Below, piece after piece: positions 22,873-40,786 of a stretch of 64,000 nt of DNA. The DNA is taken from assembly GCA_016188005.1 (NCBI GenBank), contig JACPIQ010000075.1:62001-126000 (forward strand), given 5' to 3'. The DNA is from Candidatus Rokuibacteriota bacterium. Lineage in GTDB: Bacteria > Methylomirabilota > Methylomirabilia > Rokubacteriales > CSP1-6. The notes under the pieces are model-generated. The model was given only the letters and a program-made list of their open reading frames with translations. It ran no database searches and was not told the DNA's origin. Position 1 is the first letter of the stretch. Each line of letters begins with the position of its first letter. The translations under genes and the position numbers were made by a program.

Positions 22873-23073
22873 GTGTACATCGTCGCCATCGACCCGGAAG
22901 TCTGTAACGGCAATGGGGAGTGCGTCCAGGGATGCCCCGTGGCCATCCTGTCCGAGGAGGGCGAGGGCGACGACAAGAAATGCGTCGTGAGCGGGGCCAC
23001 GGCGGACTGCCTCGGCTGCATGGTCTGCGTCGAGGTGTGCCCCACCGGCGCCATCAAGGTCGACGAGGTATAG
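22873..23073 (+). CDS. 2[4Fe-4S] ferredoxin
   Basis: This 66-residue ferredoxin has two cluster motifs: CNGNGECVQGCP near residue 11 and CLGCMVCVEVCPTGAI near residue 46. Each has the CxxCxxCxxxCP layout, with the first modified to CxxxxxCxxxCP, so the N-terminal site may bind a cluster with altered spacing. It resembles the small ferredoxins found in dsr operons. GTG start, 21 bases after tusA. It probably supplies or takes electrons for DsrAB or DsrN chemistry. Confidence 0.9.
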   Translation: MYIVAIDPEVCNGNGECVQGCPVAILSEEGEGDDKKCVVSGATADCLGCMVCVEVCPTGAIKVDEV

Positions 23074-23078
23074 CTGCA

Positions 23079-24467
23079 GTGCAGATCCCCCGCCTGGTCA
23101 TCTCGGCCCCTCATGGCCGGTCGGGCAAGACCACCGTGGCGATTGGGCTGGCCTCCGCCTTCGCCCGGCGGGGGCTGAGGGTCCAGCCCTTCAAGAAAGG
23201 GCCAGACTACATCGACCCGAGCTGGCTCGGCGAGGCCGCCGGCCGACCCTGCCGGAACCTGGATCTCTTCCTGATGGACGCCGACAGCGTTCTCGAGCGA
23301 GTGGCCTGCGCCTGCCAGTCGGCGGACCTGGCCCTCATCGAGGGCGCTCACGGCCTCTACGATGGGCTCGACGGAGAGGGAGCCAACAGCACGGCCCGGC
23401 TGGCCGTGACGCTCCAGACGCCGGTGGTGCTGATCGTGGATGCGACTCGCATGACCCAGAGCGTGGCCGCCCTGGTCCAGGGGTTCCGGGACTTCGACCC
23501 GCGCGTCCGGCTCGCGGGCGTCATCGCCAACCAGGTGAGCAGCCCCCGCCACCGCGCCAAGCTGGCTGATGCTCTCGCGCGCCACACGGGCATCCCGCTC
23601 CTGGGCGCCCTGCCCCGGGACCCCTCGCTGTCGATCCCCGACCGCCACCTGGGGCTGGTGCCGAGGGACGAGAACGAGCAACTGCTCCCCGTCGTGGAAC
23701 GGGTGCGCGCCGCGGTGGAGGCCTCCGTGGACCTGGACGCGCTGCTCGGCCTGGCCCGCAGCGCGCCGGCCCTGCCTGTCGGTCCGCATTGCCCTTCGCC
23801 GATGCCGCGCGCCCATGTGAGGCTCGGCATCGCCCGCGACCGGGCCTTCACCTTCTACTACATGGAGAACCTCGAGGCCCTGAGGGCGGCCGGGGCTGAG
23901 CTGGTCTGCCTGGACACGCTCAAGGACAGGGCGCTCCCCGACGTCGACGGCCTCTACCTGGGCGGGGGCTTCCCGGAGATGTTCCTCGAGGAGCTCGAGG
24001 TCAACGAGGCGCTCCGCGCCGACATCCGCGCGGCCATTGGCGAGGGTTTGCCGGTCTATGCCGAGTGCGCGGGGCTCATGTACCTGGCTCGGCGCATCGC
24101 GTGGCGCGGCCGCTCGGCGGCCATGGTGGGGGCGCTTCCCTGCGACGTGGAGGTCACGGAAAGGCCCCAGGGGCATGGCTACGTGCGCGCGCGCGTCACG
24201 GGCGCGAACCCCTGCTTCCCCGTCGGGACGGAGCTCCGCGGCCACGAGTTCCACTACTCGCGGGTGGTGAACCTCGGGCCGGCGCGCTTCGCCTACCGGC
24301 TGGAGCGCGGGCGGGGCGTGGCCGACGGGCGGGACGGCCTGGTGGTGGGCAATGTCCTGGCCGCCTACACCCACCTGCACGCCGCGGGCACTGCGGGGTG
24401 GGCCGAGAGCCTCGTGGCCCAGGCGCGCGCGCATCAGGCCGCCCGGCCGGCCAGGGAGGCCCGATGA
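23079..24467 (+). CDS. dsrN: DsrN/CbiA-like amidotransferase (siroheme or cobyrinate amidation)
   Basis: The 462-residue product has the CbiA/CobB architecture: an N-terminal dethiobiotin-synthetase-like ATPase (LVISAPHGRSGKTTVAIGLA; KKGPDYIDPSWL), and a C-terminal class I glutaminase with the nucleophile in PVYAECAGLMYLARR and GHEFHYSRV. In dsr loci this family is DsrN, which amidates siroheme to give the siro(heme)amide of DsrAB. With no other cobalamin genes nearby and dsrAB downstream, DsrN is the better reading. Its stop overlaps the next ATG by four bases. GTG start at 23079. Confidence 0.85.
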   Translation: MQIPRLVISAPHGRSGKTTVAIGLASAFARRGLRVQPFKKGPDYIDPSWLGEAAGRPCRNLDLFLMDADSVLERVACACQSADLALIEGAHGLYDGLDGEGANSTARLAVTLQTPVVLIVDATRMTQSVAALVQGFRDFDPRVRLAGVIANQVSSPRHRAKLADALARHTGIPLLGALPRDPSLSIPDRHLGLVPRDENEQLLPVVERVRAAVEASVDLDALLGLARSAPALPVGPHCPSPMPRAHVRLGIARDRAFTFYYMENLEALRAAGAELVCLDTLKDRALPDVDGLYLGGGFPEMFLEELEVNEALRADIRAAIGEGLPVYAECAGLMYLARRIAWRGRSAAMVGALPCDVEVTERPQGHGYVRARVTGANPCFPVGTELRGHEFHYSRVVNLGPARFAYRLERGRGVADGRDGLVVGNVLAAYTHLHAAGTAGWAESLVAQARAHQAARPAREAR

Positions 24468-24817
24468 AGATCGGCGTGATGGTCCAGGAGGGCCCGTACC
24501 AGCACCAGGCCTCCGACAGCGCCTGGCAGTTCGTCCAGGCGGCGCTCGGCCGCGGTCATCAGATCGTCGGCGTCTTCTTCTACACGGACGGCGTGCACAA
24601 CGTGAACCGGTTCATGAACCCGCCGGGCGAGCGGGTGATCGGCAAGCGGTGGTCCGAGCTGGGGGCCCAGGGGATTCCCCTGGTGGCCTGCGTCACCGAC
24701 TCGACGTACCGGGGCGTCACCCAGGAGATCGCCGTCGCCAACGTGAAGATCTCCGGCCTGGGGAACCTGGCGGAGTTCATCCAGCAAGCCGACCGCTTCG
24801 TGACGTTCGGCGACTGA
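24464..24817 (+). CDS. dsrE: Sulfur relay protein DsrE (TusD-like)
   Basis: The 117-residue protein has the DsrE pattern MKIGVMVQEGPYQHQASDSAWQ, then GHQIVGVFFYTDGVHNVN and PLVACVTDSTYRGV, with the conserved cysteine in the ACVTDS segment that carries persulfide in DsrE. It is translationally coupled to dsrN. The partner genes dsrF and dsrH are not adjacent; three exported redox genes sit between them, which is unusual. Confidence 0.85.
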   Translation: MKIGVMVQEGPYQHQASDSAWQFVQAALGRGHQIVGVFFYTDGVHNVNRFMNPPGERVIGKRWSELGAQGIPLVACVTDSTYRGVTQEIAVANVKISGLGNLAEFIQQADRFVTFGD

Positions 24818-24882
24818 GGGGAGGTGGAGTGCCGGGGCAGCGTCTCTCACAACCTGGGGCCGGATGCGCGGGAGGGACCACA

Positions 24883-26001
24883 GTGGATCACACTGGCAAG
24901 AGGATCGCAGCGCTCGTATCTGTCCTGCTGGTCGGCTTCGTCGCCGCGTGGCTCGCGGGCCCGGCGGCACTCGGCGGCGCGGAGAAGGTGCACCAGGGCA
25001 CGGTCTACATCGCCGGCATGGGGGGGCATATCGCTAAGGCCGAGCTGCGGATCGACCCGGCCCAGCCCGAGCCCATCACCGTGGTCAAGCTCAGCCGGAT
25101 CAAGCTCAACGGCGACCCGGCCGTGGCCAAGAAGGCGTACCCCTTCCACGACGTGCGGATCGACCACGCGAAGAAGGAGATGTTCTGGTCGGCCTATGTC
25201 CCGGACGGCGACGGGGTGCGCGCGGGGAAGGTGGACCTGGCCACCGGCAAGGTCCTCGCCGACGTGAAGCTGCCGAAGGACGCCAAGACGACCATGGCGC
25301 CCATGTACTGCGCGTCGGGGCAGACCAAGGACAAGTTCCTTCCCGTGATGATGGGGTACCAGGGCTTCATCGATGTCGTGGACAAGGGGACGATGAAGCT
25401 CGAGCGACGGGTCTTCCTCGACCACCCGAAGATCCCCAAGAACTATGTCTGGGCGCATGGGGTCGCCTCGCCCGACGGCAAGGAGTTCGCGCTCTGGGCG
25501 AGCCTGAGCGACACCCCCGGCACGTTCCCGCGGGGCAAGGAAGAGCGCCAGCTGATCCTGATCCTCGACACCCCGGCGCTGGTCAAGGGGGAGCTCAAGG
25601 TGCTCCGGGATACCACCGTGACGAGCGACCCGAAGAGCAGCGTATTCTTCCGCGGCTACTACACCGCGGACGGCAAGCAGCTGCTCATCTCAGGCCGGGA
25701 TCGCCACTGGGTGCTGGACGCCAAGACGCTCCGGGTCGTGGCCGAGACCGCGAATGCGCCCGGCTGGGAGAACCACGACATCCAGCCGTTGCCCGGGGAC
25801 CGGTACGCGCTCCTCACCCAGCGGGTGCCGATGGAGATCGAGCCCGGCAAGAAGGGCGTGGACGGGCAGCTCGAGCTCTACGACCTCGGCCGGAAGGCGA
25901 AGGTCGGCAAGGCCGTGTCGGTCTGCGACTCCTGCCACAGGGACGAGAACATCAAGACGACCTCGATCCTGTGCGGGATGGACAGCGTCTGGAAGCAGTA
26001 G
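24883..26001 (+). CDS. Exported YncE-like beta-propeller with C-terminal CxxCH heme motif
   Basis: The 372-residue product has an N-terminal signal (RIAALVSVLLVGFVAAWLAG), repeated beta-propeller blades (for example GKVDLATGKVLADVKL; MGYQGFIDVVDKGTMKLERR), and a terminal CDSCH heme-c attachment motif around residues 348-352, 20 residues before the end. GTG start at 24883, preceded by GGAGGGA. A propeller with one c-type heme suggests a periplasmic redox enzyme or electron carrier. No enzyme name can be given. It is followed by a cytochrome c and an SCO1 gene, all inside the dsr operon. Confidence 0.75.
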   Translation: MDHTGKRIAALVSVLLVGFVAAWLAGPAALGGAEKVHQGTVYIAGMGGHIAKAELRIDPAQPEPITVVKLSRIKLNGDPAVAKKAYPFHDVRIDHAKKEMFWSAYVPDGDGVRAGKVDLATGKVLADVKLPKDAKTTMAPMYCASGQTKDKFLPVMMGYQGFIDVVDKGTMKLERRVFLDHPKIPKNYVWAHGVASPDGKEFALWASLSDTPGTFPRGKEERQLILILDTPALVKGELKVLRDTTVTSDPKSSVFFRGYYTADGKQLLISGRDRHWVLDAKTLRVVAETANAPGWENHDIQPLPGDRYALLTQRVPMEIEPGKKGVDGQLELYDLGRKAKVGKAVSVCDSCHRDENIKTTSILCGMDSVWKQ

Positions 26002-26017
26002 GGCGCCGGATCGAGGC

Positions 26018-26713
26018 ATGACGATGGCGGGGGGACGGGCGCGGGTTGTGTGCGGTGTTCTCCTTGCGCTCGCCGCTCCGCCACCCGTCGCGGCACAGGC
26101 GCCCTTGACCATCGAGTTCCGGGGAGAGGTCCAGGCCCAGTGGGAGGTCGTCCCCCTGAAGCGCTCCATGACGGTGTCCCGCGGGGAGATCTTCGAGGCC
26201 CAGGTCAGGGTCAGCAACAAGTCAGACCGGCAGGTCCTGGCCATGGTCCTGACGGAGGTCGGCCCGCGGGGCACCGCCGGCGCGCTCGTTCATCTTGGCT
26301 GCGGGCCGACCTTCACCCTGATCCTGGAGCCGGGTGAGGCGGTGGCGGTCCCCGCCTCGTACTTCGTCGCCGAAGGGGCGCCCGGAGAGGTCGGGACATT
26401 CGACATGGCCTATGCCGTCTATTCGTTCGAGGCCCTCAGGCCCGACCCGCTCCAGGTCGGCCGGCGGATCTACGCCGCGCGCTGCATGAGCTGCCACGGT
26501 ACGCTGGGACGGGGCGACGGGCCCATCGGGCGGCTCCTGGAGGGCGGCGTGCAGGATCTCGCGCCCGCGCTCAGGGACAAGGGGGACACGGCGTTGCTCG
26601 ACGTCGTCTCTGGCGGCCTGGGCCCCATGCCCGCCTTCGCCCCCGCGCTGGCGGCATCCGAGCGGCAGGCGGTGCTGCTGTATCTCCGACACCTCGGCCG
26701 GGGGATGCCTTGA
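26018..26713 (+). CDS. Cox11-like domain fused to monoheme cytochrome c
   Basis: The 231-residue exported protein starts with a signal (VVCGVLLALAAPPPVAA). Residues 30-140 resemble the CtaG/Cox11 copper-chaperone fold (FEAQVRVSNKSDRQVLAMV; LILEPGEAVAVPASYFV), but the copper-binding CFCF motif is reduced to LGCGPTF, with a single cysteine. Residues 145-231 form a cytochrome c domain with CMSCH at 156-160. This is an unusual fusion. An SCO1 gene overlaps its end, so a periplasmic copper/heme redox function is likely. The Cox11 assignment is by pattern and moderate. Confidence 0.7.
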   Translation: MTMAGGRARVVCGVLLALAAPPPVAAQAPLTIEFRGEVQAQWEVVPLKRSMTVSRGEIFEAQVRVSNKSDRQVLAMVLTEVGPRGTAGALVHLGCGPTFTLILEPGEAVAVPASYFVAEGAPGEVGTFDMAYAVYSFEALRPDPLQVGRRIYAARCMSCHGTLGRGDGPIGRLLEGGVQDLAPALRDKGDTALLDVVSGGLGPMPAFAPALAASERQAVLLYLRHLGRGMP

Positions 26714-27357
26714 GGCGATCGGTACGGCTCAGGGTCGGGCTGGCGCTGAGCGTCCTGGGCGGGTCGGTGCTCGGCGCCGGCGTCCAGGGATCGCCGGCGC
26801 AGCCGGCACGGATGGTCCGGGTGCCCGTCGGGATCGAGGCCCCGACTTGCGTCCTCACCGGCCAGGACGGGCGCCGCCTCGCCCTCCGGGATCTCATGGG
26901 CAAGGCCGTTCTGGTCGCCTTCGTCTACACCTCCTGCCCCGATGTCTGCCCGCTCATGTTCGGCGCGGCCACCGCAGTGCAGCGGCGCGTGCAGGCCGAG
27001 GGCCGCGGGGATGTCGTGTCCGTCTTCGTGACCACCGATCCGGAGGTGGACACGCCGGAGGTCCTGAGGGCCTTCGCCACCCGTCGGGGCGCCGATCTTC
27101 CCTCCACCGTGCTTCTCACTGGCAGCGCCGACGAGCTCAGGGCGGTGTGGGAGGCGTTCGGGGTGAAGGTCAGGCGCCTGGCCCGGGGGCTCGTGGACCA
27201 CTCGCCGCTGACTTTCCTCATCGACGCCCGGGGGGTGATCCGCTACCGCTACCTGGGCGGCATCCTCGACACCGAGACCATCGCCGCGGATGTCCGGACC
27301 GTCCTGGCGAACACCACGACGAAGCGAGGCGCTCATGGAGCACATGGAGCACGGTGA
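26710..27357 (+). CDS. SCO1/SenC family copper-binding thioredoxin-like protein
   Basis: This 215-residue protein has the SCO motif FVYTSCPDVCPLM (Cys76, Cys80) and the third copper ligand His164 in LVDHSPLTFLID, plus an N-terminal hydrophobic export or anchor segment. SCO proteins deliver copper to the CuA site of cytochrome oxidase or act as thiol-disulfide reductases. TTG start at 26710 overlaps the preceding stop. No oxidase genes are nearby, so here it may serve the adjacent copper- or heme-type proteins in sulfur oxidation. Confidence 0.9.
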   Translation: MRRSVRLRVGLALSVLGGSVLGAGVQGSPAQPARMVRVPVGIEAPTCVLTGQDGRRLALRDLMGKAVLVAFVYTSCPDVCPLMFGAATAVQRRVQAEGRGDVVSVFVTTDPEVDTPEVLRAFATRRGADLPSTVLLTGSADELRAVWEAFGVKVRRLARGLVDHSPLTFLIDARGVIRYRYLGGILDTETIAADVRTVLANTTTKRGAHGAHGAR

Positions 27358-27754
27358 GCCGCGCGGGGAGCCAGGCGGCGCTCCGCCCAGGAAGGTGCTG
27401 GTTCTCATGCGCAAGGCCCCGTACGGAACCCTCTACAACTGGGAGGGTCTGCAGGTGCTCCTCATCATGGGGGCCTACAAGATGCAGGGCGTGGTGGACG
27501 TCGCCGTGGCCTTCGTGGAGGACGGGGTCTTCGCGATCACCCAGGGGCAGGACCCGACCAGCCAGGGGATGAAGGCGATCTCGAAGACCTACCCGGCGCT
27601 CCCGGACTTCGAGGTGGACCGCTTCTACGTGGACGAGCAGTCGCTGGCCGATCGAAACCTGACGCTGGATGACCTGGTGATCCGGCCCGGGATCCTCGAC
27701 GCGGCGGGGATGGCCCGTCTCCTGGAGGAGCAGGACGCGGTCCTGCCGTTCTAG
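27335..27754 (+). CDS. dsrF: Sulfur relay protein DsrF (TusC-like)
   Basis: The 139-residue product has the DsrF/TusC pattern KVLVLMRKAPYGTLYNWEGLQ, then VVDVAVAFVEDGVFAITQGQD, LPDFEVDRFYVDEQSL and LDAAGMARLLEEQDAVLPF. Canonical TusC/DsrF proteins lack the catalytic Cys, and this one has none, which is consistent. The ATG at 27335 lies inside the end of the SCO1 gene, giving a 23-base overlap. dsrH follows after ten bases. Confidence 0.85.
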   Translation: MEHMEHGEPRGEPGGAPPRKVLVLMRKAPYGTLYNWEGLQVLLIMGAYKMQGVVDVAVAFVEDGVFAITQGQDPTSQGMKAISKTYPALPDFEVDRFYVDEQSLADRNLTLDDLVIRPGILDAAGMARLLEEQDAVLPF

Positions 27755-27764
27755 AGGAGGCCGA

Positions 27765-28061
27765 GTGGTGCTCTTCACGGTGAACAAGTCGCCGTACCTG
27801 CACGGCAACCTGGAAGGCTGCCTGCGGCTGGCCCCGGCCGGGACGCCACTCGTGCTCTACGAGGACGGGGTGTACGCGGCGGTGGCGGGCACGCGCGTGG
27901 AAGAGCTGATGCGCCAGGCCCTGGCCCGGCACCCCGTCTACGCGCTCGAAGCCGACCTCAGGGCCCGCGGGCTCGAGCGCCTGATCGAGGGCGTGCGGGT
28001 GATCGACTACGCGGGCTTCGTGGAGCTGGTGGAGCAGCATCCCGTGGTGCCGTGGCTGTGA
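27765..28061 (+). CDS. dsrH: Sulfur relay protein DsrH (TusB-like)
   Basis: This 98-residue TusB/DsrH-family protein begins VLFTVNKSPYLHGNLEGCLRL and continues TPLVLYEDGVYAAVAG, ending VIDYAGFVELVEQHP. The LYEDGVYA segment is the family signature. A cysteine lies near residue 19 (LEGCLRL). With dsrE and dsrF it completes a DsrEFH set, a marker of the oxidative dsr pathway. GTG start, GAGG upstream. Confidence 0.88.
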   Translation: MVLFTVNKSPYLHGNLEGCLRLAPAGTPLVLYEDGVYAAVAGTRVEELMRQALARHPVYALEADLRARGLERLIEGVRVIDYAGFVELVEQHPVVPWL

Positions 28062-28097
28062 CACCCGCCCGGCGGGCGGCGTAAGAGGAGAACGAGC

Positions 28098-29510
28098 ATG
28101 CTGGTGGTGCAGCTGGCGTGTCCCAAGTGCGGCTTCGTCATCGAGCAGTACCCGGCCGATCAGCTCGAGGCGGACTCACAGAAGCAGAAGCGCTACCAGT
28201 ACCTCCGGAAGAAGCAGACGCTCTGCCCGAGCTGCCTCAGCCAGACCGCCAAGCTCGAGGAGCGGCGGGTGGAGGTGGAAGCGCCGCCCCAGGCCGAGCT
28301 CCTGGCCGAGGCCGCGGCGCCGCCCGAGGCGGTACCTGCGGGCGAGGCGGTCGCGCCGACGCCGCTATGCGACGAGCTGGAACGGGGGCCCTGGCCCAGC
28401 CACGTCACGGAACTAAAGCAGACGCGGTACCACATGCAGATGTACGAGGAGGGCCTGCGCCAGAAGAGAACCCAGTGGGGGTTCGGGGGCTACACCTCGA
28501 TTCCCGGCGTGGCCTCCGGGATCCTCATGCGGGCCTCGGCCCGGCCCGACATCGCCAAGGGGGCCAACCTGGTCCGCGCCTTCTGTCCCAGCGGGACGTT
28601 CTACTCCACGCAGACCCTCCGGGCCCTCTGCGACGTGGCGGACCGCCACGGCTACGGCATCCTCCACCTCCATGCCACGACCTGCGACATCGAGGTCCTG
28701 GGGGTGCCCAAGGAGGAGCTCCGGGCGACGGTGGACGAGCTGGTGGCCGCCGGCCTGGACGTGGGCTCCACCGGGGATGCCTACCGCAACTGCCAGGAGT
28801 GCATCGGCCCCTTGCGCTGCGAGATGGTCCTGGTGGACTCGGTGGCCATGCGCCAGGCCTACTTCACGCGCTTCCTGGACGACGTCCAGTACCCGCGCTT
28901 CCCCCACAAGATCAAGTTCAAGCTCTCGGGATGCCCCAACGATTGCACCCGCTCCCAGCAGAAGGGGGACATCGCCATCGTCGGGGTGTTCCGGGATCCG
29001 CCGACGATCGACGCGGCCCGGCTCGAGGGCTGGGTCGCTGGGGGCGGGGACATCGCCCACATCGTCAGGATGTGCCCGACCCGCGCCATGGAGTGGGACG
29101 GCCGGCGGCTGGCCATCGACGCCGACGGCTGCGTCCGCTGCATGTACTGCATCAACCAGTGCCCGGGCATCCGCCCGGGCGGCGACCGCGGCGTGGCCGT
29201 CCTGGCCGGCGGCAAGATGCGGGGCAAGTACGGGCCGCTCCAGCCCTTCGTCATCGCGCCGTTCGTCCCCGCCGTCCCGCCGGACTTCACGGAGGTCTTC
29301 GACCTCTGCGCCAAGATCACGGATGTCTACGACGAGCACGCGCGCCGCAAGGAGCGGCTGGGGGATTTCATCTACCGCACGGGCATCGACCAGTTCTGCC
29401 GCCTGGTCGGCGTGCCGCCGGCCCCTCAGCAGATGGTCTCTCCCCGCATCAATCCCTTCTACCACTGGACGCCTGAAGAGCTGCAGGCCTCGCGGAAGGA
29501 GCCCGACTGA
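28098..29510 (+). CDS. dsrA: Dissimilatory sulfite reductase alpha subunit with N-terminal Cys4 extension
   Basis: The 470-residue product has DsrA features from about residue 97 on: ERGPWPSHVTELKQTRY, THW-like RTQWGFGGY, siroheme/[4Fe-4S] ligands C235-x5-C241 (CIGPLRCE) and C279-x3-C283 (SGCPNDC), and a ferredoxin insert with C345, C348, C351 and C355. The first 55 residues form two CxxC pairs (CPKC at 8-11, CPSC at 43-46), like a zinc ribbon, joined by an Ala/Pro/Glu linker. I know of no such extension in canonical DsrA. The subunit is cytoplasmic, in an alpha2beta2 complex with DsrB and DsrC, interconverting sulfite and DsrC-trisulfide. Its stop overlaps dsrB. Confidence 0.9.
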   Translation: MLVVQLACPKCGFVIEQYPADQLEADSQKQKRYQYLRKKQTLCPSCLSQTAKLEERRVEVEAPPQAELLAEAAAPPEAVPAGEAVAPTPLCDELERGPWPSHVTELKQTRYHMQMYEEGLRQKRTQWGFGGYTSIPGVASGILMRASARPDIAKGANLVRAFCPSGTFYSTQTLRALCDVADRHGYGILHLHATTCDIEVLGVPKEELRATVDELVAAGLDVGSTGDAYRNCQECIGPLRCEMVLVDSVAMRQAYFTRFLDDVQYPRFPHKIKFKLSGCPNDCTRSQQKGDIAIVGVFRDPPTIDAARLEGWVAGGGDIAHIVRMCPTRAMEWDGRRLAIDADGCVRCMYCINQCPGIRPGGDRGVAVLAGGKMRGKYGPLQPFVIAPFVPAVPPDFTEVFDLCAKITDVYDEHARRKERLGDFIYRTGIDQFCRLVGVPPAPQQMVSPRINPFYHWTPEELQASRKEPD

Positions 29511-30562
29511 TGCCTGGCGTCGGCCTCCCTCCTCTCGAACGGAACGTGCCGCCCATCGTCCTCCGCAACTACGGGAAGTGGACGGACCACGAAGCCGTGA
29601 GACCCGGCGTCCTCAAACATGTGGCCGAGAGCGGCGAGGCATGCTACACCGTGCGCGCCGGGATGCCGACGAACGCGCGGGTCTCCACCACGCTCGCCCG
29701 CAAGATCGCGGACCTCGCGGACGAGTTCGCCGGCGGGCACCTGCGCCTCACCCGGCGCCACAGCCTGGAGCTGGTCGGGGTGGACCCGGCCCGGATCGAC
29801 GCGCTGATCGAGCGGCTCCGGAGTCTCGGGCTGCCCGTGGGCGGCACCGGCCGCACCTTCCGCAACACGGTGTCCTGCACGGGCTGGATCCATTGCCAGT
29901 TCGCTGCCACCGATGCCCCGGCCGTGGCCAAGGCCATCTCCGATGAGCTGTACGAGGACTTCCGCGCCGAGCGCTACCCGGCGAAGCTCAAGATCTCCAT
30001 CTCCGGCTGCGTGAACCAGTGCGGCGAGGGATCCACCGCGGACATCGGGATCGTCGGCATCCACCGGGCTCTGCCCCGGGTCATCGACGAGGAAGTGGCC
30101 CGCTGCGAGATCCCGCTGATCGTCTCGGTCTGCCCCACCGGCGCCATCAAGCCCAAGCCGCCGAAGAGCGTCCAGGTGGATCCCGAGCGCTGCATCCACT
30201 GCGTGGCCTGCGCCGCCCCGTGCCAGGGAATGCAGATCGGCGACCCGGATACCGACGGCGTCGCGGTCGTGGTTGGCGGCAAGGCGGGAAACTCTGGGAA
30301 CGGCCCGGCCTTCGCCAAGTTCGTGATCCCCTACCTCCCCAACACGCCGCCCCGCTGGCCCGAGGTCACCCGGGCGGTGAGGCAGATCGTGGAGGTGTGG
30401 GTGAAGGGAGCCCGGCGGGACGAGCGGATCGGCGACTGGATCGCCCGGATCGGCTGGGACAAGTTCTTCGAGAAGGCCGGGCTGCCGATGAGCGGCAAGC
30501 TCCTCGACGGCTACGTCCTCTGGCCCATGTCGGCCCGCACCGGGGTGCGGTTCCACTGGTAG
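29510..30562 (+). CDS. dsrB: Dissimilatory sulfite reductase beta subunit
   Basis: This 350-residue partner of DsrA has TGRTFRNTVSCTGWIHC (C123-x5-C129), the DsrB-type FAATDAP segment, ISGCVNQCGEG (C167-x3-C171), and a ferredoxin domain with C228, C231, C234 and C238 (CIHCVACAAPC). All four residues needed to hold a siroheme-coupled cluster are present. The GCVNQC motif departs from the CCLNMC of common DsrB, so this is a divergent lineage. ATG start overlaps the dsrA stop by one base. Confidence 0.92.
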   Translation: MPGVGLPPLERNVPPIVLRNYGKWTDHEAVRPGVLKHVAESGEACYTVRAGMPTNARVSTTLARKIADLADEFAGGHLRLTRRHSLELVGVDPARIDALIERLRSLGLPVGGTGRTFRNTVSCTGWIHCQFAATDAPAVAKAISDELYEDFRAERYPAKLKISISGCVNQCGEGSTADIGIVGIHRALPRVIDEEVARCEIPLIVSVCPTGAIKPKPPKSVQVDPERCIHCVACAAPCQGMQIGDPDTDGVAVVVGGKAGNSGNGPAFAKFVIPYLPNTPPRWPEVTRAVRQIVEVWVKGARRDERIGDWIARIGWDKFFEKAGLPMSGKLLDGYVLWPMSARTGVRFHW

Positions 30563-30595: not shown

Positions 30596-30913
30596 ATGGC
30601 GACGGTAGAGCTCGAAGGCAAGACGATGGAGCTGGACGAGGACGGGTTCCTGCAGGATCCCGATCTCTGGTCCCAGACGGTGGCCCAGTACTTCGCCGAC
30701 CAGGAGGGGCTGGGGCGGCTCACTGACGAGCACTGGAAGGTGGTCAACATGATCCGCGGCTACTACCTCCAGTTCGGCGTCGCCCCCATGATCCGCAAGG
30801 TCGTCAAGGACACCGGCTTCGACCTCAAGCACATCTACCAGCTCTTCCCCTCGGGGCCGGCCAAGGGGGCCTGCAAGGTGGCCGGCCTCCCCAAGCCCAC
30901 GGGCTGCGTGTAG
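30596..30913 (+). CDS. dsrC: DsrC sulfur-carrier/substrate protein
   Basis: This 105-residue DsrC ends GACKVAGLPKPTGCV, with both redox cysteines (CysB and the penultimate CysA) spaced eleven residues apart. That makes it true DsrC, not a TusE-like paralogue lacking CysB. It also has the family start GKTMELDEDGFLQDPDLWS and the MIRGYYLQFGVAPMIRKVVK helix. It forms the trisulfide with DsrAB and is recycled by DsrMKJOP. GAGAGGAGAG lies upstream of the ATG. Confidence 0.96.
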   Translation: MATVELEGKTMELDEDGFLQDPDLWSQTVAQYFADQEGLGRLTDEHWKVVNMIRGYYLQFGVAPMIRKVVKDTGFDLKHIYQLFPSGPAKGACKVAGLPKPTGCV

Positions 30914-30925
30914 GCGCCGGCGGAG

Positions 30926-31507
30926 GTGGCGGTGACGCTGCCCGCGGGCGCCCGCGCGGCGGGCGGGCCAGGTCTCGGGGCGCTGGCGGCACGGCGGAGC
31001 GCCATCGCCGGCCGCTGGCTGGCGCTGACGCTCGAGAGCTACCCGGCCCCCACCGCGCGCCTGCTGGCGCGCGAGAGCGACCCCTTCCGCAACCCCGTCG
31101 GGCACACCCTCAGGCAGGCGCTGTCGGGGCTCGCGGAGGAGCTTATCGGGACGATGGACCCAGGCAGGGTCACCGCCCTCCTGGACAGCGTCGTGAGGGT
31201 CCGCGCCGTCCAGGCCATGAGCGCCGGCGAGGCCGTAGGCTTCGTGTTCCTGGCCAGGCAGGCCCTGCGGGAAGAGTTGGGCAGCGGCGGGGGGCTGCCG
31301 GCCGCGGACGGGCTCGGGGTTCTGGAGGCGCGGGTCGACGAGATGGCGCTCTCGGCCTTCGACTTGTTCATGCGCTGCCGCGAGCAGATCCACGCGATCA
31401 GGGCCGGCGAGGCCCGAGGCCGGACGGCTCTCCTGGACCGCATCCGCGAGCGGGAGGGCCGGTCCGGGGGCGGGCCCGCCGGGATGGACCGGGGAGCTTC
31501 GCCGTGA
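30926..31507 (+). CDS. RsbRD N-terminal domain-like sensor protein in dsr operon
   Basis: The 193-residue product has an all-helical domain matching the RsbRD_N pattern: IAGRWLALTLESYPAPTARLLARESDPFRNPVGHTLRQA, then LIGTMDPGRVTALLDSVVRVRAVQAM. Genes with this domain are known beside dsrM in sulfur bacteria. It ends in a Gly-rich charged tail. The start is one of two close GTGs (30926 or 30932), and the end overlaps dsrM by four bases. A regulatory or sensor role is inferred; no catalytic motif is seen. Confidence 0.7.
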   Translation: MAVTLPAGARAAGGPGLGALAARRSAIAGRWLALTLESYPAPTARLLARESDPFRNPVGHTLRQALSGLAEELIGTMDPGRVTALLDSVVRVRAVQAMSAGEAVGFVFLARQALREELGSGGGLPAADGLGVLEARVDEMALSAFDLFMRCREQIHAIRAGEARGRTALLDRIREREGRSGGGPAGMDRGASP

Positions 31508-32496
31508 GCGCGCTGGCGCCCCTCGCCCTCGTCCTGCTCCTGGCCGGGCTGGCGCTCGGGGCGGCTCAGATCGCCGGGCTCCGCCCCGTGCTCGGCGTGC
31601 TCCTCCCCTACGCGGCCTTCGTCACCTTCCTCCTCGGGGTATGCCATCGCATCCTGGTGTGGGTGCGCGCTCCTGTCCCCTTCCGCATCCCCACCACCTG
31701 CGGCCAGCAGCGCTCCCTTCCCTGGATCACGCCGAGCCGCATCGAGAACCCGTCCTCGACCGCTGGCGTCGTGGCGCGCATGGCGCTGGAGGTGTGTCTG
31801 TTCCGGTCGCTGCTCCGCGGCAGCCGGGCCGAGCTGCGGGAAGGGCCGCGGCTGGTGTACGCCGACGACCGGCTCCTCTGGCTGGCGGCGCTGGCCTTCC
31901 ACTGGTCGCTCCTCCTCGTCGTCCTGAGACACCTGCGCTTCTTCCTGGAACCAGTGCCCGCAGCGATCCGCGCGCTGGCAGCGCTGGACGGCTTCTTCCA
32001 GCTGGGCGCCCCGGGGCTCTACGCCACGGACGTCGTCCTCGTGGCCGCGCTGGGCTACCTCCTCTGGCGGAGGCTCGCGAACCCGCAGCTCCGGTACCTG
32101 TCGTTGTCCGCCGACTACTTCGCGCTCTACCTGCTGCTGGGGCTGGCCGCCTCCGGTCTGCTCATGCGGCATGTGGTGAGGGCGGACGTCCTGGCGGTGA
32201 AGCAGCTCGCTCTCGGCCTCGTGACCCTCTCCCCCACTGTCCCCGAGGGCGTGGGCTCCCTGGCGCTCCTGCACCTCCTCCTCCTGAGCACGCTCGCCGC
32301 CTACTTCCCCTTCAGCAAGCTCATGCACATGGGCGGCATCTTCCTGAGCCCGACGCGGAACCTGGCCAATACCAGCCGCGCGCATCGCCACGTCAACCCC
32401 TGGAACGCGCCCGTCGCCACCCACAGCTACGAGGAGTGGGAGGACGAGTTCCGGGACAAGATCAGGGCGGCCGGCCTGCCGCTCGAGAAGGGATAG
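31504..32496 (+). CDS. dsrM: DsrM, NarI-like b-type cytochrome
   Basis: This 330-residue integral membrane protein has about six hydrophobic helices. Conserved histidines in the membrane segments (FLLGVCHRI, AFHWSLLLV, LLMRHVV, KLMHMGG) are candidate heme b ligands. The C-terminus (RAHRHVNPWNAPV, YEEWEDEFRDKI) matches DsrM. It is the quinone-side cytochrome b of the DsrMKJOP complex. GTG start overlaps the RsbRD-like gene. dsrK follows after two bases. Confidence 0.92.
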   Translation: MSALAPLALVLLLAGLALGAAQIAGLRPVLGVLLPYAAFVTFLLGVCHRILVWVRAPVPFRIPTTCGQQRSLPWITPSRIENPSSTAGVVARMALEVCLFRSLLRGSRAELREGPRLVYADDRLLWLAALAFHWSLLLVVLRHLRFFLEPVPAAIRALAALDGFFQLGAPGLYATDVVLVAALGYLLWRRLANPQLRYLSLSADYFALYLLLGLAASGLLMRHVVRADVLAVKQLALGLVTLSPTVPEGVGSLALLHLLLLSTLAAYFPFSKLMHMGGIFLSPTRNLANTSRAHRHVNPWNAPVATHSYEEWEDEFRDKIRAAGLPLEKG

Positions 32497-32498
32497 CG

Positions 32499-34118
32499 AT
32501 GGCGGAAGAGGCCCCGGCCCCCGCGGAGCTCGCGAAGGTCGACTACCGGCCGCCGGCGCGCGACTGGCGGGAGCCCGCCGTCGACTTCCGCAGGGGGACG
32601 TACTGCTACGGCGCCGCGCCAAAGAACCTCCAGTACCTCGGGCTGCCCAACCCACGGCCGTGGCAGCCCCACGACGCGGACTGGAAGCTCCCCCCCGACT
32701 GGAAGCAGACGATCCTGGCGGGCATGAAGGACAGGCTCGAGCGCTTCCGGTCCTTCCGCCTGTTCATGGACATCTGCGTGCGCTGCGGGGCCTGCGCCGA
32801 CAAGTGCCACTTCTACCTCGGCACCGGTGACCCCAAGAACATGCCGGTGCTGAGAGCCGAGCTGATGCGCTCGGTGTACCGGCGCTACTTCACCCTGCCC
32901 GGCCGGCTGCTGGGCCGGCTCGGGGGGGGGCGGGAGCTCACGGAGGACGTGCTCAAGGAGTGGTTCTACTACTACCACCAGTGCACGGAGTGCCGCCGCT
33001 GCTCGGTCTTCTGCCCCTTCGGGATCGACACGGCCGAAGTGACCATGATGGGGCGCGAGCTCTTGACCCTCGTGGGCTGCAACATCAACTGGATCCTCGA
33101 GCCGGCGGCGAATTGCTACCGGACGGGCAATCACCTCGGGATCCAGCCGCATGCCTTCAAGGACAGCGTCGACTTCGCCGTGGACGAGCTGGAGGAGATG
33201 ACCGGCATCCGCGTGGAGGCGCCCATCAACAAGAAGGGCGCCGAGATCCTGTACGTCATCCCGTCGGCGGAGACCTTCGGGACGCCCCACTACTACACGC
33301 TCCTGGGCACGTTGCTCCTCTTCCACGCCATCGGCCTGGACTACACGCTCAGCGCCTACGCCTCGGAGGGCGGCAACTTCGGCCTCTTCACCTCCCACGA
33401 GGTGATGAAGCGGCTGAACGCCAAGATCTACGCCGAGGCCCGGCGGCTGGGGGTCAAGTGGATCCTCGGCGGCGAGTGCGGCCACATGTGGCGTGTCGTC
33501 CACCAGTACATGGACACCATGAACGGCCCGGCGGACTTCCTGGAGGAGCCCGTCTCGCCGGTGACGGGCACGCGGTTCGCGCAGGCGCGGTCCACGAAGA
33601 TGGTGCATATCTGCGAATTCACGGCCGATCTCATCCGCGAGGGCAAGCTCCGGGTCGACCCGCGGCGGAACGACCACTGGGTCGCGACCTTCCATGACTC
33701 CTGCAACCCGGCCCGGGCGATGGGGCTTCTCGAGGAGCCGCGCTTCGTCCTCCGGAGTGTGTGCCAGCGCTTCCACGAGATGCCCGAGAGCACCATCCGC
33801 GAGCGGACCTTCTGCTGCGGGAGCGGGTCGGGTCTCGGCACGGACGAGAACTTCGAGATGCGCATGCGGGGCGGCTTCCCCCGGGCCAATGCCGTGCGGC
33901 ATGTGCGGGACCGCTTCGGCGTGAACCTGGTCGCCTGCATCTGCGCCATCGACAAGGCCACGCTCCCGCCGCTCCTGGAGTACTGGGTGCCGGGGATGAA
34001 CGTGGCCGGCGTGCACGAGCTCGTGGGCAATGCCCTCGTGGTCGAGGGCGAGAAGGCGCGGACCCAGGACCTGCGCGGCCAGCCCCTCGCCTCGCCGGAG
34101 GCGCCCGCCGGTGCGTGA
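32499..34118 (+). CDS. dsrK: DsrK, HdrD-like iron-sulfur subunit
   Basis: This 539-residue protein has two ferredoxin motifs (CVRCGACADKC and CTECRRCSVFCPFG), and a C-terminal CCG domain with FHDSCNPAR and ERTFCCGSGSGLG. These belong to the noncubane-type cluster fold of heterodisulfide reductases. DsrK faces the cytoplasm and is thought to act on DsrC disulfide or trisulfide. ATG at 32499 follows dsrM directly. The 3' end overlaps dsrJ by eight bases. Confidence 0.94.
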   Translation: MAEEAPAPAELAKVDYRPPARDWREPAVDFRRGTYCYGAAPKNLQYLGLPNPRPWQPHDADWKLPPDWKQTILAGMKDRLERFRSFRLFMDICVRCGACADKCHFYLGTGDPKNMPVLRAELMRSVYRRYFTLPGRLLGRLGGGRELTEDVLKEWFYYYHQCTECRRCSVFCPFGIDTAEVTMMGRELLTLVGCNINWILEPAANCYRTGNHLGIQPHAFKDSVDFAVDELEEMTGIRVEAPINKKGAEILYVIPSAETFGTPHYYTLLGTLLLFHAIGLDYTLSAYASEGGNFGLFTSHEVMKRLNAKIYAEARRLGVKWILGGECGHMWRVVHQYMDTMNGPADFLEEPVSPVTGTRFAQARSTKMVHICEFTADLIREGKLRVDPRRNDHWVATFHDSCNPARAMGLLEEPRFVLRSVCQRFHEMPESTIRERTFCCGSGSGLGTDENFEMRMRGGFPRANAVRHVRDRFGVNLVACICAIDKATLPPLLEYWVPGMNVAGVHELVGNALVVEGEKARTQDLRGQPLASPEAPAGA

Positions 34119-34506
34119 CCGGGGCCTGCTGGTGGGCGGCCTGGCCCTCTTCGTGGCCGTGGTCACCTTCCCGGTCTGGTACAACGTCGCCGCCGGGACG
34201 ACCGCGCGGGGCCCCGAGCCGGTGCGTCCCGCGGCGGCCGGGCGCTGCGTGGCGCCCACGGAGTACATGCGCGCCTCGCACATGAGCCTGCTGATGGCGT
34301 GGCGGGACGACGTGGTGCGAGGGCAGGAGCGCAATTTCGTGGGCCCCGACGGGAAGACCTATGCCAAGAGCCTCACCCGCACCTGTCTCGGCTGCCACAC
34401 CAACAAGGCGGAGTTCTGCGACCGCTGCCACGCCTCCGCGGCCGTCACGCTCACCTGCTGGGAGTGCCACATCGATCCCGCCTCGCTCCGGAGGGCAGGG
34501 CGATGA
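34111..34506 (+). CDS. dsrJ: DsrJ, periplasmic triheme cytochrome c
   Basis: The 131-residue product has an N-terminal anchor helix (GLLVGGLALFVAVVTFPVW) and three heme-c motifs: CLGCH, CDRCH and CWECH. The upstream GRCVAPTEYMRASHM provides the Cys and Met proposed as unusual axial ligands in DsrJ. GTG start inside the dsrK end; the stop overlaps the dsrO ATG by four bases. It is the periplasmic electron entry or exit of DsrMKJOP. Confidence 0.93.
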   Translation: MRDRGLLVGGLALFVAVVTFPVWYNVAAGTTARGPEPVRPAAAGRCVAPTEYMRASHMSLLMAWRDDVVRGQERNFVGPDGKTYAKSLTRTCLGCHTNKAEFCDRCHASAAVTLTCWECHIDPASLRRAGR

Positions 34507-35270
34507 GCGTGGATCGCCGGGCCTTCCTGGGCGCGGCCGGGCTCTGCGCGCTGGCCGTCACCGGAACGCGCTCCCTCGAGGCGCTGGCCGGCACCGGCCG
34601 CCCGGAGACGGCGCCCCAGGGACGCCGCGTCCCACGCTGGGGCATGGTCGTCGATCTGCGAAGATGCCTCCAGGCGGATGGCTGCACCGACTGCATCGCC
34701 GCCTGCGAGCGCGCGCACAACGTGCCGCGGCTTCCGTCGCGGGCGCACGAGGTGAAGTGGATCTGGCGCGAGCCCTACGAGCGGGCCTTCGCCCAGCGCG
34801 GCAGCGGGTACGCGGACGAGGCCTTGAGAGGCAAGCTCGTCCCCGTGCTGTGCAACCACTGCGACAACCCCCCGTGCGTGCGCGTCTGCCCCGTCAAGGC
34901 CACGTGGAAACGCGAGGACGGCATCGTCATGATGGACTGGCACCGCTGCATCGGCTGCCGCTACTGCATGGCGGCCTGTCCCTACGGGGCGCGGAGCTTC
35001 AACTGGCTCGACCCGCGGCCTCGGGTCAAGGAGGTGAACCCGGACTTCCCCACGCGCACCCGGGGAGTCGTCGAGAAATGCAACTTCTGCGAGGAGCGGC
35101 TCGCCCAGGGGCGCGGGCCGGCCTGCGTGGAGGCCTGCCGGGAGCGGGCGCTCGCCTTCGGCGACCTGCGCGACCCCGGCTCCCAGGTGCGGGAGCAGCT
35201 CCGGAGTCGCCACGCCATGCGCCGGAAGCCCGAGCTCGGCACCGAGCCGAGCGTCTACTACCGGGCATGA
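34503..35270 (+). CDS. dsrO: DsrO, Tat-exported ferredoxin-like subunit
   Basis: This 255-residue protein has a twin-arginine signal (DRRAFLGAAG) and four cysteine groups for [4Fe-4S] clusters: CLQADGCTDCIAAC, CNHCDNPPCVRVCP, CIGCRYCMAACP, and CNFCEERLAQ with CVEAC. This is the arrangement of HybA/DmsB-like DsrO. It links DsrJ hemes to the membrane subunit DsrP. ATG overlaps the dsrJ stop. Confidence 0.94.
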   Translation: MSVDRRAFLGAAGLCALAVTGTRSLEALAGTGRPETAPQGRRVPRWGMVVDLRRCLQADGCTDCIAACERAHNVPRLPSRAHEVKWIWREPYERAFAQRGSGYADEALRGKLVPVLCNHCDNPPCVRVCPVKATWKREDGIVMMDWHRCIGCRYCMAACPYGARSFNWLDPRPRVKEVNPDFPTRTRGVVEKCNFCEERLAQGRGPACVEACRERALAFGDLRDPGSQVREQLRSRHAMRRKPELGTEPSVYYRA

Positions 35271-35288
35271 GGGCGCGGGGAGGCGGCC

Positions 35289-36488
35289 GTGCCTGACAGG
35301 GCGTTCGGCGGCGGCGGGCGGTATTGGGCCTGGCTCGGTGTCCTGGCGACGCTGATCGTCGCGGGCGCGCTGGCCTACCAGCGGCAGCTCGCGCTGGGGC
35401 TGGGGATCACGGGGCTGAGCCGGGACGTGACCTGGGGCCTCTACATCGCCCAGTTCACCTTCCTGGTCGGGGTGGCGGCCTCGGCCGTCGTGGTGGTCCT
35501 GCCCTATTACCTGCACGACTACCGCGTCTTCGGCAGGATCACGATCCTCGGCGAGTGCCTCGCCGTCTCCGCCGTGGCCATGTGCCTGCTCTTCGTCTTC
35601 GTGGACATGGGCCAGCCCGCGCGCGCGCTCAACGTGCTCCTGTACCCGACGCCCAGCTCCATCATGTTCTGGGACATGCTCGTCCTCGCCGGCTACCTCG
35701 GGCTCAACGCCGTCATCGCCCGGGCCACGCTCGCCGCCGAGCACCGGGGCGTGCCGCCCCCCCGGTGGCTCGGGCCCGTCATCGTGCTCTCCATTCCCTG
35801 GGCCGTCAGCATCCACACGGTCACGGCGTTCCTGTACAGCGGGCTCCCCGGACGGCACCTGTGGCTGACCGCCCTCCTCGCCCCGCGCTTCCTCGCCTCG
35901 GCCTTCGCCTCGGGGCCCGCGCTGCTCATCCTCCTGGCCATGCTCCTCCGCCGGCTCACGGGCTTCGATGTCGGGCGGGAGGCCCTCCAGAAGCTCGGGC
36001 TGATCGTCGCCTACACGATGACCGTCAACGTCTTCTTCGTGCTCGTGGAGCTCTTCACCGTCTTCTACAGCCAGGCGCCCGAGGCGATCGACCACTTCGA
36101 GTTCCTGTTCCTGGGACTCGAGGGCCAGGCGGGACTCGTCCCGTGGATGTGGGCCTCGGTGATCCTGGCCGTGCTGTCGCTGGGCCTGCTCCTCACGCCG
36201 CGCCTGCGCCGGGACATGCGGCTCCTGGCCGCCGCCTGCGCCATGGTGTTCGCCTCGCTGTGGATGGACAAGGGCCTCGGCCTCATCGTCGGCGGCTTCG
36301 TGCCCTCGCCCCTGGGAGAGGTGACGGGCTATGTCCCGACGCTGCCGGAAGTCGCCATCGCGCTGGCCATCTGGGCCGTCGGCTCGCTCCTGGCCAGCGT
36401 GCTCTTCAAGGTCGTCGTCGCCGTGAGGGGGGAGCCGGGTGGCCCCGACTCCCACTCCCGCTCGGTCCGGGCCCCCGTCGAAGCATGA
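35289..36488 (+). CDS. dsrP: DsrP, NrfD/HybB-like quinone-interacting membrane subunit
   Basis: This 399-residue protein has about ten hydrophobic helices of the NrfD family. It opens YWAWLGVLATLIVAGALAY, with GLYIAQFTFLVGVAASAVVV and the conserved MDKGLGLIVGGFVPSPLGEV. It has no cofactor motif, as expected, and exchanges electrons with the quinone pool. The last codons overlap the Rrf2 gene (ATGA). It completes dsrMKJOP in the canonical order. Confidence 0.92.
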   Translation: MPDRAFGGGGRYWAWLGVLATLIVAGALAYQRQLALGLGITGLSRDVTWGLYIAQFTFLVGVAASAVVVVLPYYLHDYRVFGRITILGECLAVSAVAMCLLFVFVDMGQPARALNVLLYPTPSSIMFWDMLVLAGYLGLNAVIARATLAAEHRGVPPPRWLGPVIVLSIPWAVSIHTVTAFLYSGLPGRHLWLTALLAPRFLASAFASGPALLILLAMLLRRLTGFDVGREALQKLGLIVAYTMTVNVFFVLVELFTVFYSQAPEAIDHFEFLFLGLEGQAGLVPWMWASVILAVLSLGLLLTPRLRRDMRLLAAACAMVFASLWMDKGLGLIVGGFVPSPLGEVTGYVPTLPEVAIALAIWAVGSLLASVLFKVVVAVRGEPGGPDSHSRSVRAPVEA

Positions 36489-38415: not shown

Positions 38416-38594
38416 GCGCCAGAGGTCGCACTCTCCTCTTCATGGCTGCCGACGCTGACCTGAGCGCGCGCGCCGCAGTAGCCGGTGGCGAGCGAACCTC
38501 GCAGCATGTGAGACGGAGAGCAGCATCCGTGTCGTAGGCCCAGACGTGTCGCGTGGGGGCGGGGGGGCCGACAGCCAGCTTCGCCGCTGAACGT

Positions 38595-40786
38595 CTTTCA
38601 GTCCCCTCCTCATCGGGGAACGACGTGCGACAACGACGTGTGCGAAATCACGCGGCTGGTTACTGACCTTTCAGTCCCCTCCTCATCGGGGAACGACGTG
38701 CGACGCACCCCTCGGCGCGGCATGGCGTGGCACGGCCAGGCACTTTCAGTCCCCTCCTCATCGGGGAACGACGTGCGACGGGCACCTGGGACTGGGCCGA
38801 GACACGATGGCTGTCCGCTCTTTCAGTCCCCTCCTCATCGGGGAACGACGTGCGACGGAGGAGCGCTGTGTGTTTCACCGCTTTGTCCTCGTTCTTTCAG
38901 TCCCCTCCTCATCGGGGAACAACGTGCGACGTGCCACGGCTCGCTGTCAGGGCGCCCCAGCTTGACCTTTCAGTCCCCTCCTCATCGGGGAACGACGTGC
39001 GACTCTCGGCTCGAGGACGACACGCAGAAGACGGTGGCGCGCTTTCAGTCCCCTCCTCATCGGGGAACGACGTGCGACATTCGACCGACGCAGGGGCAGG
39101 CAAGGTGCTCTGCTTCGCTTTCAGTCCCCTCCTCATCGGGGAACGACGTGCGACGAGGTGGCCGGCGCGCTCTTCGAGGGCCGACGGTGCCTTTCAGTCC
39201 CCTCCTCATCGGGGAACGACGTGCGACGCTCCACCTGCTGGACTACTTGAAACAGACAGTTTCGACTTTCAGTCCCCTCCTCATCGGGGAACGACGTGCG
39301 ACGACACTGCCATTGGGCGAGAGGGTAAAATGTCATGGGGCTTTCAGTCCCCTCCTCATCGGGGAACGACGTGCGACCTACGGCCGACACTACGCCCCGC
39401 ACGACATCATGGTGCCTTTCAGTCCCCTCCTCATCGGGGAACGACGTGCGACGAGCGCGCTGGCCGGGGCCACCAGCGGGGCGACTCCCTTTCAGTCCCC
39501 TCCTCATCGGGGAACGACGTGCGACCTTCGCCAAGTGGCAAGCCAACCGCATCAGTCCGATGACTTTCAGTCCCCTCCTCATCGGGGAACGACGTGCGAC
39601 GGGATCGGGCTCGTGCGGTGAAGTGCCTCGAGCGCGTGCTTTCAGTCCCCTCCTCATCGGGGAACGACGTGCGACGGCGACTGGGTGTGGCAGGGGCAGC
39701 ACGCGACGCGCTTTCAGTCCCCTCCTCATCGGGGAACGACGTGCGACCTACTTCGGGCCGGTCGGGTGTGGGAAGACATCGGCCGCTTTCAGTCCCCTCC
39801 TCATCGGGGAACGACGTGCGACCTGCGGATTCGGACGGCGGACGGGCAGACGGGGACGCTGGCTTTCAGTCCCCTCCTCATCGGGGAACGACGTGCGACT
39901 TGACGGGGTGAGCAAAGGAACGGTCACCTTCTCCATCTTTCAGTCCCCTCCTCATCGGGGAACGACGTGCGACATCTCACGGATGTCCTCGACACCCAGT
40001 TCACGCCCCATGCTTTCAGTCCCCTCCTCATCGGGGAACGACGTGCGACCGTCACGCGGGGGTCGACCTGCCGCATGTACTGCATCTTTCAGTCCCCTCC
40101 TCATCGGGGAACGATGTGCGACCCGCACCCAGCTCATGGACTACCCGCGGATGAACGTCTTTCAGTCCCCTCCTCATCGGGGAACGACGTGCGACAACGG
40201 TTGAAGCGGCATATCGGTGACGCGCTGGAGCTCTTTCAGTCCCCTCCTCATCGGGGAACGACGTGCGACTGGCGGATCTGTACGACGCCGTGGCGCAGGT
40301 GGTCCAGCTTTCAGTCCCCTCCTCATCGGGGAACGACGTGCGACCATGGCCAGGTCGCCGGGTCCTCGTGAGAGATGGTCCTTTCAGTCCCCTCCTCATC
40401 GGGGAACGACGTGCGACACGGAACGCCTCGGTGACGGGCAGCGGCGCGCAGACGGCTTTCAGTCCCCTCCTCATCGGGGAACGACGTGCGACCATAGGAG
40501 CCCACAGCGCGAAGGGGGCTGAACTCCAGCTTTCAGTCCCCTCCTCATCGGGGAACGACGTGCGACTTACAAGCTTGCAGACTACTGTGCTGCGCTCGCG
40601 TCTTTCAGTCCCCTCCTCATCGGGGAACGACGTGCGACTGTGGACCAAGTCAACGCAATGGTCCGCAAATACTACCTTTCAGTCCCCTCCTCATCGGGGA
40701 ACGACGTGCGACTCGGGCGTGATGGGCCACACGCGAAACCAGTTACTGTCTTTCAGTCCCCTCCTCATCGGGGAACGACGTGCGAC
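38595..40786 (-). CRISPR. CRISPR array, 30 repeats of 37 bp and 29 spacers
   Basis: Thirty 37-base repeats start at 38595 and end at 40786, with 29 spacers of 35-40 bases (mostly 36-38). On the plus strand each repeat runs from CTTTCAGTCCCC to GACGTGCGAC, with CCCC and GGGG arms that can form a hairpin. Read on the minus strand it ends GGGACTGAAAG, which looks like the normal 3' end that becomes the crRNA 5' handle. Transcription is therefore probably leftward, the same strand as the cas genes. Only two repeats differ, each by one base: the fifth from the left (38894-38930, G to A) and the twenty-first (40086-40122, C to T). All spacers look different from each other. Confidence 0.99.

Follow-up and report, generated by a model that had tools for sequence, protein, structure and literature searches.

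Few marker enzymes of the sulfur cycle are as conserved as DsrA, and turnover of DsrAB passes its sulfur to DsrC. Known DsrA proteins (TIGR02064; PDB 3mm5 and 2v4j) share a body with siroheme/[4Fe-4S] and ferredoxin-domain ligands, have DsrB and DsrC as partners, and start no more than a few residues from (S/T)PLLDELEKGPWPS. No accessory domain on DsrA is described in the literature searched, and the papers on Rokubacterial or early DsrAB make no mention of "N-terminal" or, where checked, of "zinc". DsrD and DsrL have been reported absent in Methylomirabilota/Rokubacteria (PMC10591310, PMC7596348), and surveys find DsrEFH combined with early-branching DsrAB in these organisms (PMC10591310, PMC7596348, PMC11406059). 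Among the closest described proteins are the "basal type II" DsrAB of Methylomirabilota, Hydrothermarchaeum profundi and others (PMC12948486); Hydrothermarchaeum DsrA is the nearest relative of Rokubacterial DsrA, at 51% identity, but begins at MTLNTPLVDELCKGPWPS and lacks the module described below.

The DNA analysed (the window) is a stretch of 64,000 nucleotides from a member of the Rokubacteria, uncultured bacteria of soil and groundwater that form a small group. Its dsrA gene (28098-29510, forward strand) encodes 470 amino acids, 86 of them additional to the known DsrA start, and the coordinates of its parts and of the surrounding genes are collected in the table below. The translation confirmed the original prediction of a CPKC motif at residues 8-11 and a CPSC motif at residues 43-46, followed by an Ala/Pro/Glu linker; the two knuckles, C8-x2-C11 and C43-x2-C46, lie in a module of about 60 residues with the overall spacing C-x2-C-x31-C-x2-C, and the linker has 26 residues, 77% of which are A, P or E. 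The same prediction had placed the usual DsrA start near residue 97, but alignment moves it about ten residues earlier, to residue 86-88 (TPLCDELERGPWPS), residue 97 being the G of the conserved GPWPS; homology to solved DsrA runs from residue 86-87 (aPTPLCDELERGPWPS), which corresponds to residue 2 of A. fulgidus DsrA and residue 5 of D. vulgaris DsrA. The module is real, lineage-specific in our sample and undescribed in the literature searched, and it gives DsrA a new architecture without making a new kind of system: the catalytic subunit of a marker enzyme bears a selected, lineage-specific domain.

Table. Features of the dsr region and of the dsrA gene (window positions)
Feature	Position	Strand	Basis or remark
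tusA	starts 22606		
Small ferredoxin-like gene, two CxxC..C sets	22873-23073		between tusA and dsrN
dsrN/cobB-like	starts 23091		
dsrE-like (TusD/DsrE)	24464..24817	+	TIGR03012 above cut-off
dsrF-like (TusC/DsrF)	27290..27754	+	TIGR03010 88.3 bits, slightly below cut-off of 94.15
dsrH, directly 5' of dsrA	27765..28061	+	PF04077
Ribosome-binding site AGAGGAG	28084..28090	+	7 nt 5' of dsrA ATG at 28098; read directly
N-terminal Cys4 module, DsrA residues 1-60	28098..28277	+	invariance, low dN/dS, predicted folded
First knuckle C8-P-K-C11, then GF	28119..28130	+	both Cys invariant, 6/6 genes
Predicted basic helix, residues 20-40 (ADQLEADSQKQKRYQYLRKKQ)	28155..28217	+	AlphaFold helices 20-25 and 27-39; alignment
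Probable recombination breakpoint between tandem dsrAB copies	28215..28245	+	best at gene nt 123, about 28220
Second knuckle C43-P-S-C46	28224..28235	+	all four residues invariant, 6/6 genes
Possible internal start, GAGGAG then GTG58	28257..28271	+	sequence and codons; conservation of Shine-Dalgarno-like site and GTG58 not strict
Acidic Ala/Pro/Glu linker, residues 61-86	28278..28355	+	poorly conserved, with indels; pLDDT < 50
DsrA proper, residues 87-470	28356..29510	+	family models, alignment to solved DsrA
dsrB	29510..30562	+	TIGR02066 above cut-off
dsrC, both C-terminal cysteines (GACKVAGLPKPTGCV)	30596..30913	+	PF04358
dsrMK, candidate dsrJ, dsrOP	31504..36488	+	NF038037, NF045796, NF045797, NF045798 above cut-off for M, K, O, P
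Candidate dsrJ	34030-34506	+	position only; no family match

The enzyme body is intact, with all catalytic and cluster ligands present. The siroheme-[4Fe-4S] ligands C235, C241, C279 and C283 (Cx5C and Cx3C), the ferredoxin-domain cysteines C326, C345, C348 and C351, and the sulfite-site residues R145, R160, K271, K273 and K275 are all invariant in the alignment. The match to TIGR02064 has an E value of 1.6e-99 and covers model positions 2-392 of 402; its 333.5 bits fall below the curated cut-off of 392.85, as expected because the protein is of an early-branching type, and identify the gene as alpha, not beta (164 bits for the beta model).

An extension of this kind can be an artefact of start-site choice, and it was originally recognised that homologues starting near residue 97 behind a good ribosome-binding site, with an unconserved upstream part, would point that way. 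The only in-frame starts of the window gene in codons 5-112 are GTG58 and GTG60, and no start near residue 97 is therefore possible; ATG, GTG and TTG were looked for in frame in codons 61-112 and none is present. The dsrA ATG, with a comparable purine-rich site before it, is kept in 6/6 of the genes that carry the module, and the upstream part is conserved. A start near residue 97 is thus refuted. GTG58 and/or GTG60, behind the upstream GAGGAG, could yield a minor isoform that lacks the Cys4 module and retains the linker. That the extension as a whole is a start-site artefact, or a sequence without function at the protein level, is nevertheless barely credible, given the conserved ATG and ribosome-binding site, the start-free codons 61-112, and a reading frame and cysteines that are kept across six genes and three genera with a low dN/dS.

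This ratio was 0.09-0.22 for residues 1-60, excepting the window/copy b and copy a/copy b comparisons, which are affected by recombination (the copies are described below), and about 0.24-0.6 for the linker, the length of which differs by three residues among the genes. Among residues 1-57 84% are invariant, as against 61% in the body and 14% in the linker, in a set of six sequences, five of them close, that has limited power to tell constraint from recent common ancestry. The four module cysteines are invariant in all six genes, which come from five Rokubacteriales genomes in three genera. These comparisons show the module to lie in a single reading frame under purifying selection, with invariant cysteines and followed by an unconstrained linker. 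Because the module and the body are constrained and the linker drifts, the protein consists of two constrained parts joined via an unconstrained tether.

The six genes were found in five of 95 genomes of the class, the window's own included; named carriers include Candidatus Rokubacteria GWC2_70_16, GWA2_70_23, CSP1-6 and a groundwater Rokuibacteriota MAG, and genome searches returned two congeners of the window's genome followed by more distant family members. A sixth DsrA-bearing genome of the class (G061) has a conventional DsrA, without the extension, that groups among other bacterial DsrA. Of 55 further DsrA from bacteria and archaea, each followed back to the nearest stop, none has an upstream CxxC motif; they come from a sample of domain-wide genomes that is centred on the window's genome, another DsrA carrier and Hydrothermarchaeum profundi and lies outside the "basal type II" DsrA that PMC12948486 names for Verrucomicrobiota, Planctomycetota and Chloroflexota. 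Nearly all of the 55 have a possible start no more than about 10 residues from the canonical motif, and the few with longer upstream frames have no cysteine pairs there. The module is thereby ruled out as a common feature of DsrA; the earlier supposition that typical DsrA has no such domain agrees with this count, and within the sample the module is limited to Rokubacteriales genes. A scan of contigs with exact peptides, of which one, QKQKRYQY, came from the module, gave matches only in Rokubacteria and Hydrothermarchaeum.

When 61 DsrA bodies without the extension were placed in a maximum-likelihood tree, the six Rokubacterial genes clustered (99/95) and joined two Hydrothermarchaeum-type DsrA (100/95). 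Neither of the latter has the module, their starts lying at MTLNTPLVDELCKGPWPSH in one and at about MKSKTPIVDELCKGPWPSH in the other. Because the 55 other DsrA, nearest relatives included, have no upstream CxxC, the module is, in the sample, a lineage-specific addition to a DsrA that branches early, and the simplest history is that the Rokubacterial stem gained it once, at the former start codon. In G061, which belongs to another family of the class, the DsrAB (locus L047, contig C183) is of the bacterial type, i.e. a separate acquisition; just upstream of it lies a gene for a 558-aa pyridine-nucleotide oxidoreductase, ferredoxin-like at one terminus, which we take to resemble DsrL.

The genome of GWC2_70_16 carries dsrAB in tandem, in the order dsrH, dsrA-b, dsrB-b, dsrA-a, dsrB-a (locus L043, G002:C99, 7361-12335). 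Both DsrA copies carry the module and retain the siroheme and ferredoxin-domain cysteines; their bodies are about 65% identical and their modules 85% identical, and the synonymous divergence of the module (dS 0.19) is lower than that of the body (0.60). For DsrB the identity is about 74%, measured against the DsrB of the window, and in CSP1-6 (G029) a second dsrB, whose product is 77.5% identical to the window's DsrB, lies immediately 5' of dsrA at the contig end. The window gene, which follows dsrH, resembles copy b up to about nt 123-140 (10/11 informative sites in the gene, with 90-100% identity to copy b in the region upstream of it) and copy a past that point (315/333 sites; Fisher p = 2e-11), and the breakpoint between the two falls inside the module. 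Tandem copies, an arrangement observed in relatives only, have thus likely recombined within their shared module with the deletion of one dsrAB. Since the crossover lies inside the module, the identity of the module between paralogues is not owed to selection alone, and tandem dsrAB that recombine in a shared module matter for dsrA phylogenies and amplicon surveys.

When the module was modelled alone with AlphaFold (6 sequences), the prediction comprised a strand at residues 3-7, the knuckle C8-C11, a strand at 14-19, helices at 20-25 and 27-39, the knuckle C43-C46 and helices at 49-60, with a mean pLDDT of 70 and about 80 for residues 1-30. The stretch Q28-Q40 of the basic helix is invariant in the alignment of the six genes. 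In the full-length model residues 43-84 have a pLDDT < 50, indicative of disorder, and the two models suggest a fold of moderate confidence on a flexible tether. The predicted topology, in which the first knuckle lies between two strands and the second before a helix, could fit a Cys4 site of the zinc-ribbon or treble-clef kind, and a Foldseek search of the module against the PDB gave no match.

No Pfam family matched the module above its cut-off (best 17.6 bits, against a cut-off of 29), and a known zinc-finger family was rejected on this ground; the sub-threshold matches in Pfam and PDB profiles are mostly zinc ribbons and zinc fingers, with nucleic-acid-binding ones such as TFIIB among the best. 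Generic zinc ribbons (Zn_Ribbon_TF, Zn_ribbon_TFIIB, YnfU and small CPxC..CPxC proteins) share the paired CPxC knuckles, but the module differs from them in a longer middle that would form a basic helix, and its second knuckle has no customary Gly following the last Cys. The original description of a zinc-ribbon-like Cys4 extension is therefore upheld as to a conserved Cys4 module; as to a zinc ribbon it has the backing of neither a family model above cut-off nor a solved structure, and a long basic helix and a helix behind the second knuckle are predicted besides. At E <= 0.01 a profile of the module found nothing but the six dsrA genes in 388 genomes. A search for a standalone relative with one sequence in 95 genomes gave, apart from the dsrA genes, weak matches only (E >= 0.03), and no relative was found in the viral contigs and plasmids searched. 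The best-looking of the weak matches, a short CPxC..CPxC protein (L059 in G067, MLEILRCPGCGFRIQGFPAQYLNRRMVVCPQC..., E 0.1), was rejected as a relative; its middle is shorter, and the gene downstream of it presumably encodes a PilZ-domain protein.

Metal binding and partner docking together are the most plausible reading of the module. The specific form that we favour, tentatively and with a probability of roughly 40%, is a Zn(Cys)4 docking arm for a partner of DsrAB; we infer the metal, the docking, the partner and the effect alike. A lineage-specific domain would have been added a single time, where DsrA canonically starts, in an ancestor shared by a group of Rokubacteriales. Its four cysteines would bind one structural zinc as Zn(Cys)4 and so pin a short strand hairpin to the basic helix, and the folded module would swing on its acidic A/P/E tether of 25-30 residues. 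The invariant basic helix (QKQKRYQYLRKKQ) would bind an acidic protein that partners DsrAB; DsrC is the likeliest, being preferred because DsrAB turnover passes sulfur to it, and DsrEFH comes next. The arm would thereby concentrate this protein locally at the cleft between DsrA and DsrB, where sulfur derived from sulfite would be loaded onto DsrC or removed from it, and it could perform in cis what DsrD or DsrL perform in other lineages.

The computed charges are +2.5 for the module (helix pI 9.2), -3.3 for DsrC, -7.3 for the DsrE/F-like protein encoded at 27290 and -3.0 for DsrH, and a basic, invariant helix alongside acidic DsrC, DsrE/F-like protein and DsrH weakly suggests a docking partner among these. 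The docking arm is also favoured by a module that is conserved next to a linker that is not, by the compact strands and helix predicted ahead of a disordered stretch, by the intact ligands of the enzyme body, by the presence of dsrEFH and dsrC in the same gene cluster, by the reported absence of DsrD and DsrL, and by the retention of the module on both tandem paralogues despite the divergence of their bodies; against it count the small set of mostly close sequences, the part of recombination in the identity of the paralogous modules, evident from the low dS, and the missing Gly after the second knuckle. An adjacent ferredoxin had been named as a further candidate for docking, but the ferredoxin-like gene actually lies about 5 kb upstream of dsrA. 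DsrD and DsrL are possible analogues in role, as modulators of DsrAB/DsrC, but no sequence relation of the module to either was found, and it is unmatched by PF08679 (DsrD); a search of the window's genome for DsrD gave no match, and neither did the control of that search. It is improbable that the module is a built-in coupling factor of an early-branching sulfite reductase that recruits DsrC/DsrEFH in cis, replaces DsrD/DsrL and lets a reductive-type DsrAB swap sulfur with an oxidative-type DsrEFH relay. The hosts of the module do mix reductive-type DsrAB with DsrEFH, reportedly without DsrD/DsrL.

The module might alternatively be structural, serve in assembly or regulate, by stabilising DsrA, by assisting siroheme or cluster insertion, by sensing metals or oxidants, or by nucleic-acid autoregulation through the basic helix. 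An invariant basic helix combined with Cys4 knuckles fits such roles, as do nucleic-acid-binding zinc ribbons among the best weak matches, but these matches are all far below family cut-offs, the cluster has no nucleic-acid link, and 55 other sampled DsrA do without the module; we regard this group of explanations as doubtful. It is unlikely that the module is instead a sulfur-handling thiol domain, in which CPKC and/or CPSC carry persulfide, in either direction, between DsrEFH/TusA/DsrC and the active site of DsrAB. The invariant cysteines, the predicted mobility of the tether, and a cluster that holds dsrEFH, tusA and dsrC, with dsrH immediately 5' of dsrA, would suit that task, but a pair of CPxC knuckles spaced as in a zinc finger has the look of metal ligands and not of a single acceptor thiol, the weak matches are mostly zinc ribbons and zinc fingers, and no likeness to known sulfur carriers was found.

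Rubredoxins have the cysteine spacing C-x2-C-x29-C-x2-C, to which that of the module is close, and a rubredoxin-like Fe(Cys)4 domain could pass electrons from a soluble donor to DsrAB. This is very unlikely, and a rubredoxin as such was rejected: none appears among the PDB profile or Pfam matches at E <= 10, a central helix is predicted in place of the rubredoxin sheet, and the second CPxC is not followed by Gly. The docking arm remains our preferred reading.

The cluster around dsrA runs tusA, ferredoxin-like gene, dsrN/cobB-like gene, dsrE, an insert of about 2.5 kb, dsrF, dsrH, dsrA, dsrB and dsrC, followed by an RsbRD_N protein, dsrM, dsrK, the candidate dsrJ, dsrO, dsrP and an Rrf2 regulator. 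The insert leaves dsrEFH unusually split (24464-28061) and contains a large open frame (24880-26001), a c-type-cytochrome-like reading and a SCO1/SenC gene (26710-27357). The protein with an RsbRD_N domain, encoded at 30926-31507 between dsrC and dsrM, has a similar-looking counterpart beside dsrM in L047. On another contig of the window's genome, an aprA-like gene above the TIGR02061 cut-off is represented by two overlapping matches in different frames (L155 and L156, G000:C81:18904-20651; model positions 1-414 and 439-613), which suggests an assembly frameshift or a split gene. Just 3' of the dsr cluster, at 38582-40790, lies a CRISPR-like array with at least 30 copies of a repeat of about 37 nt (CTTTCAGTCCCCTCCTCATCGGGGAACGACGTGCGAC) at a spacing of 72-77 nt.
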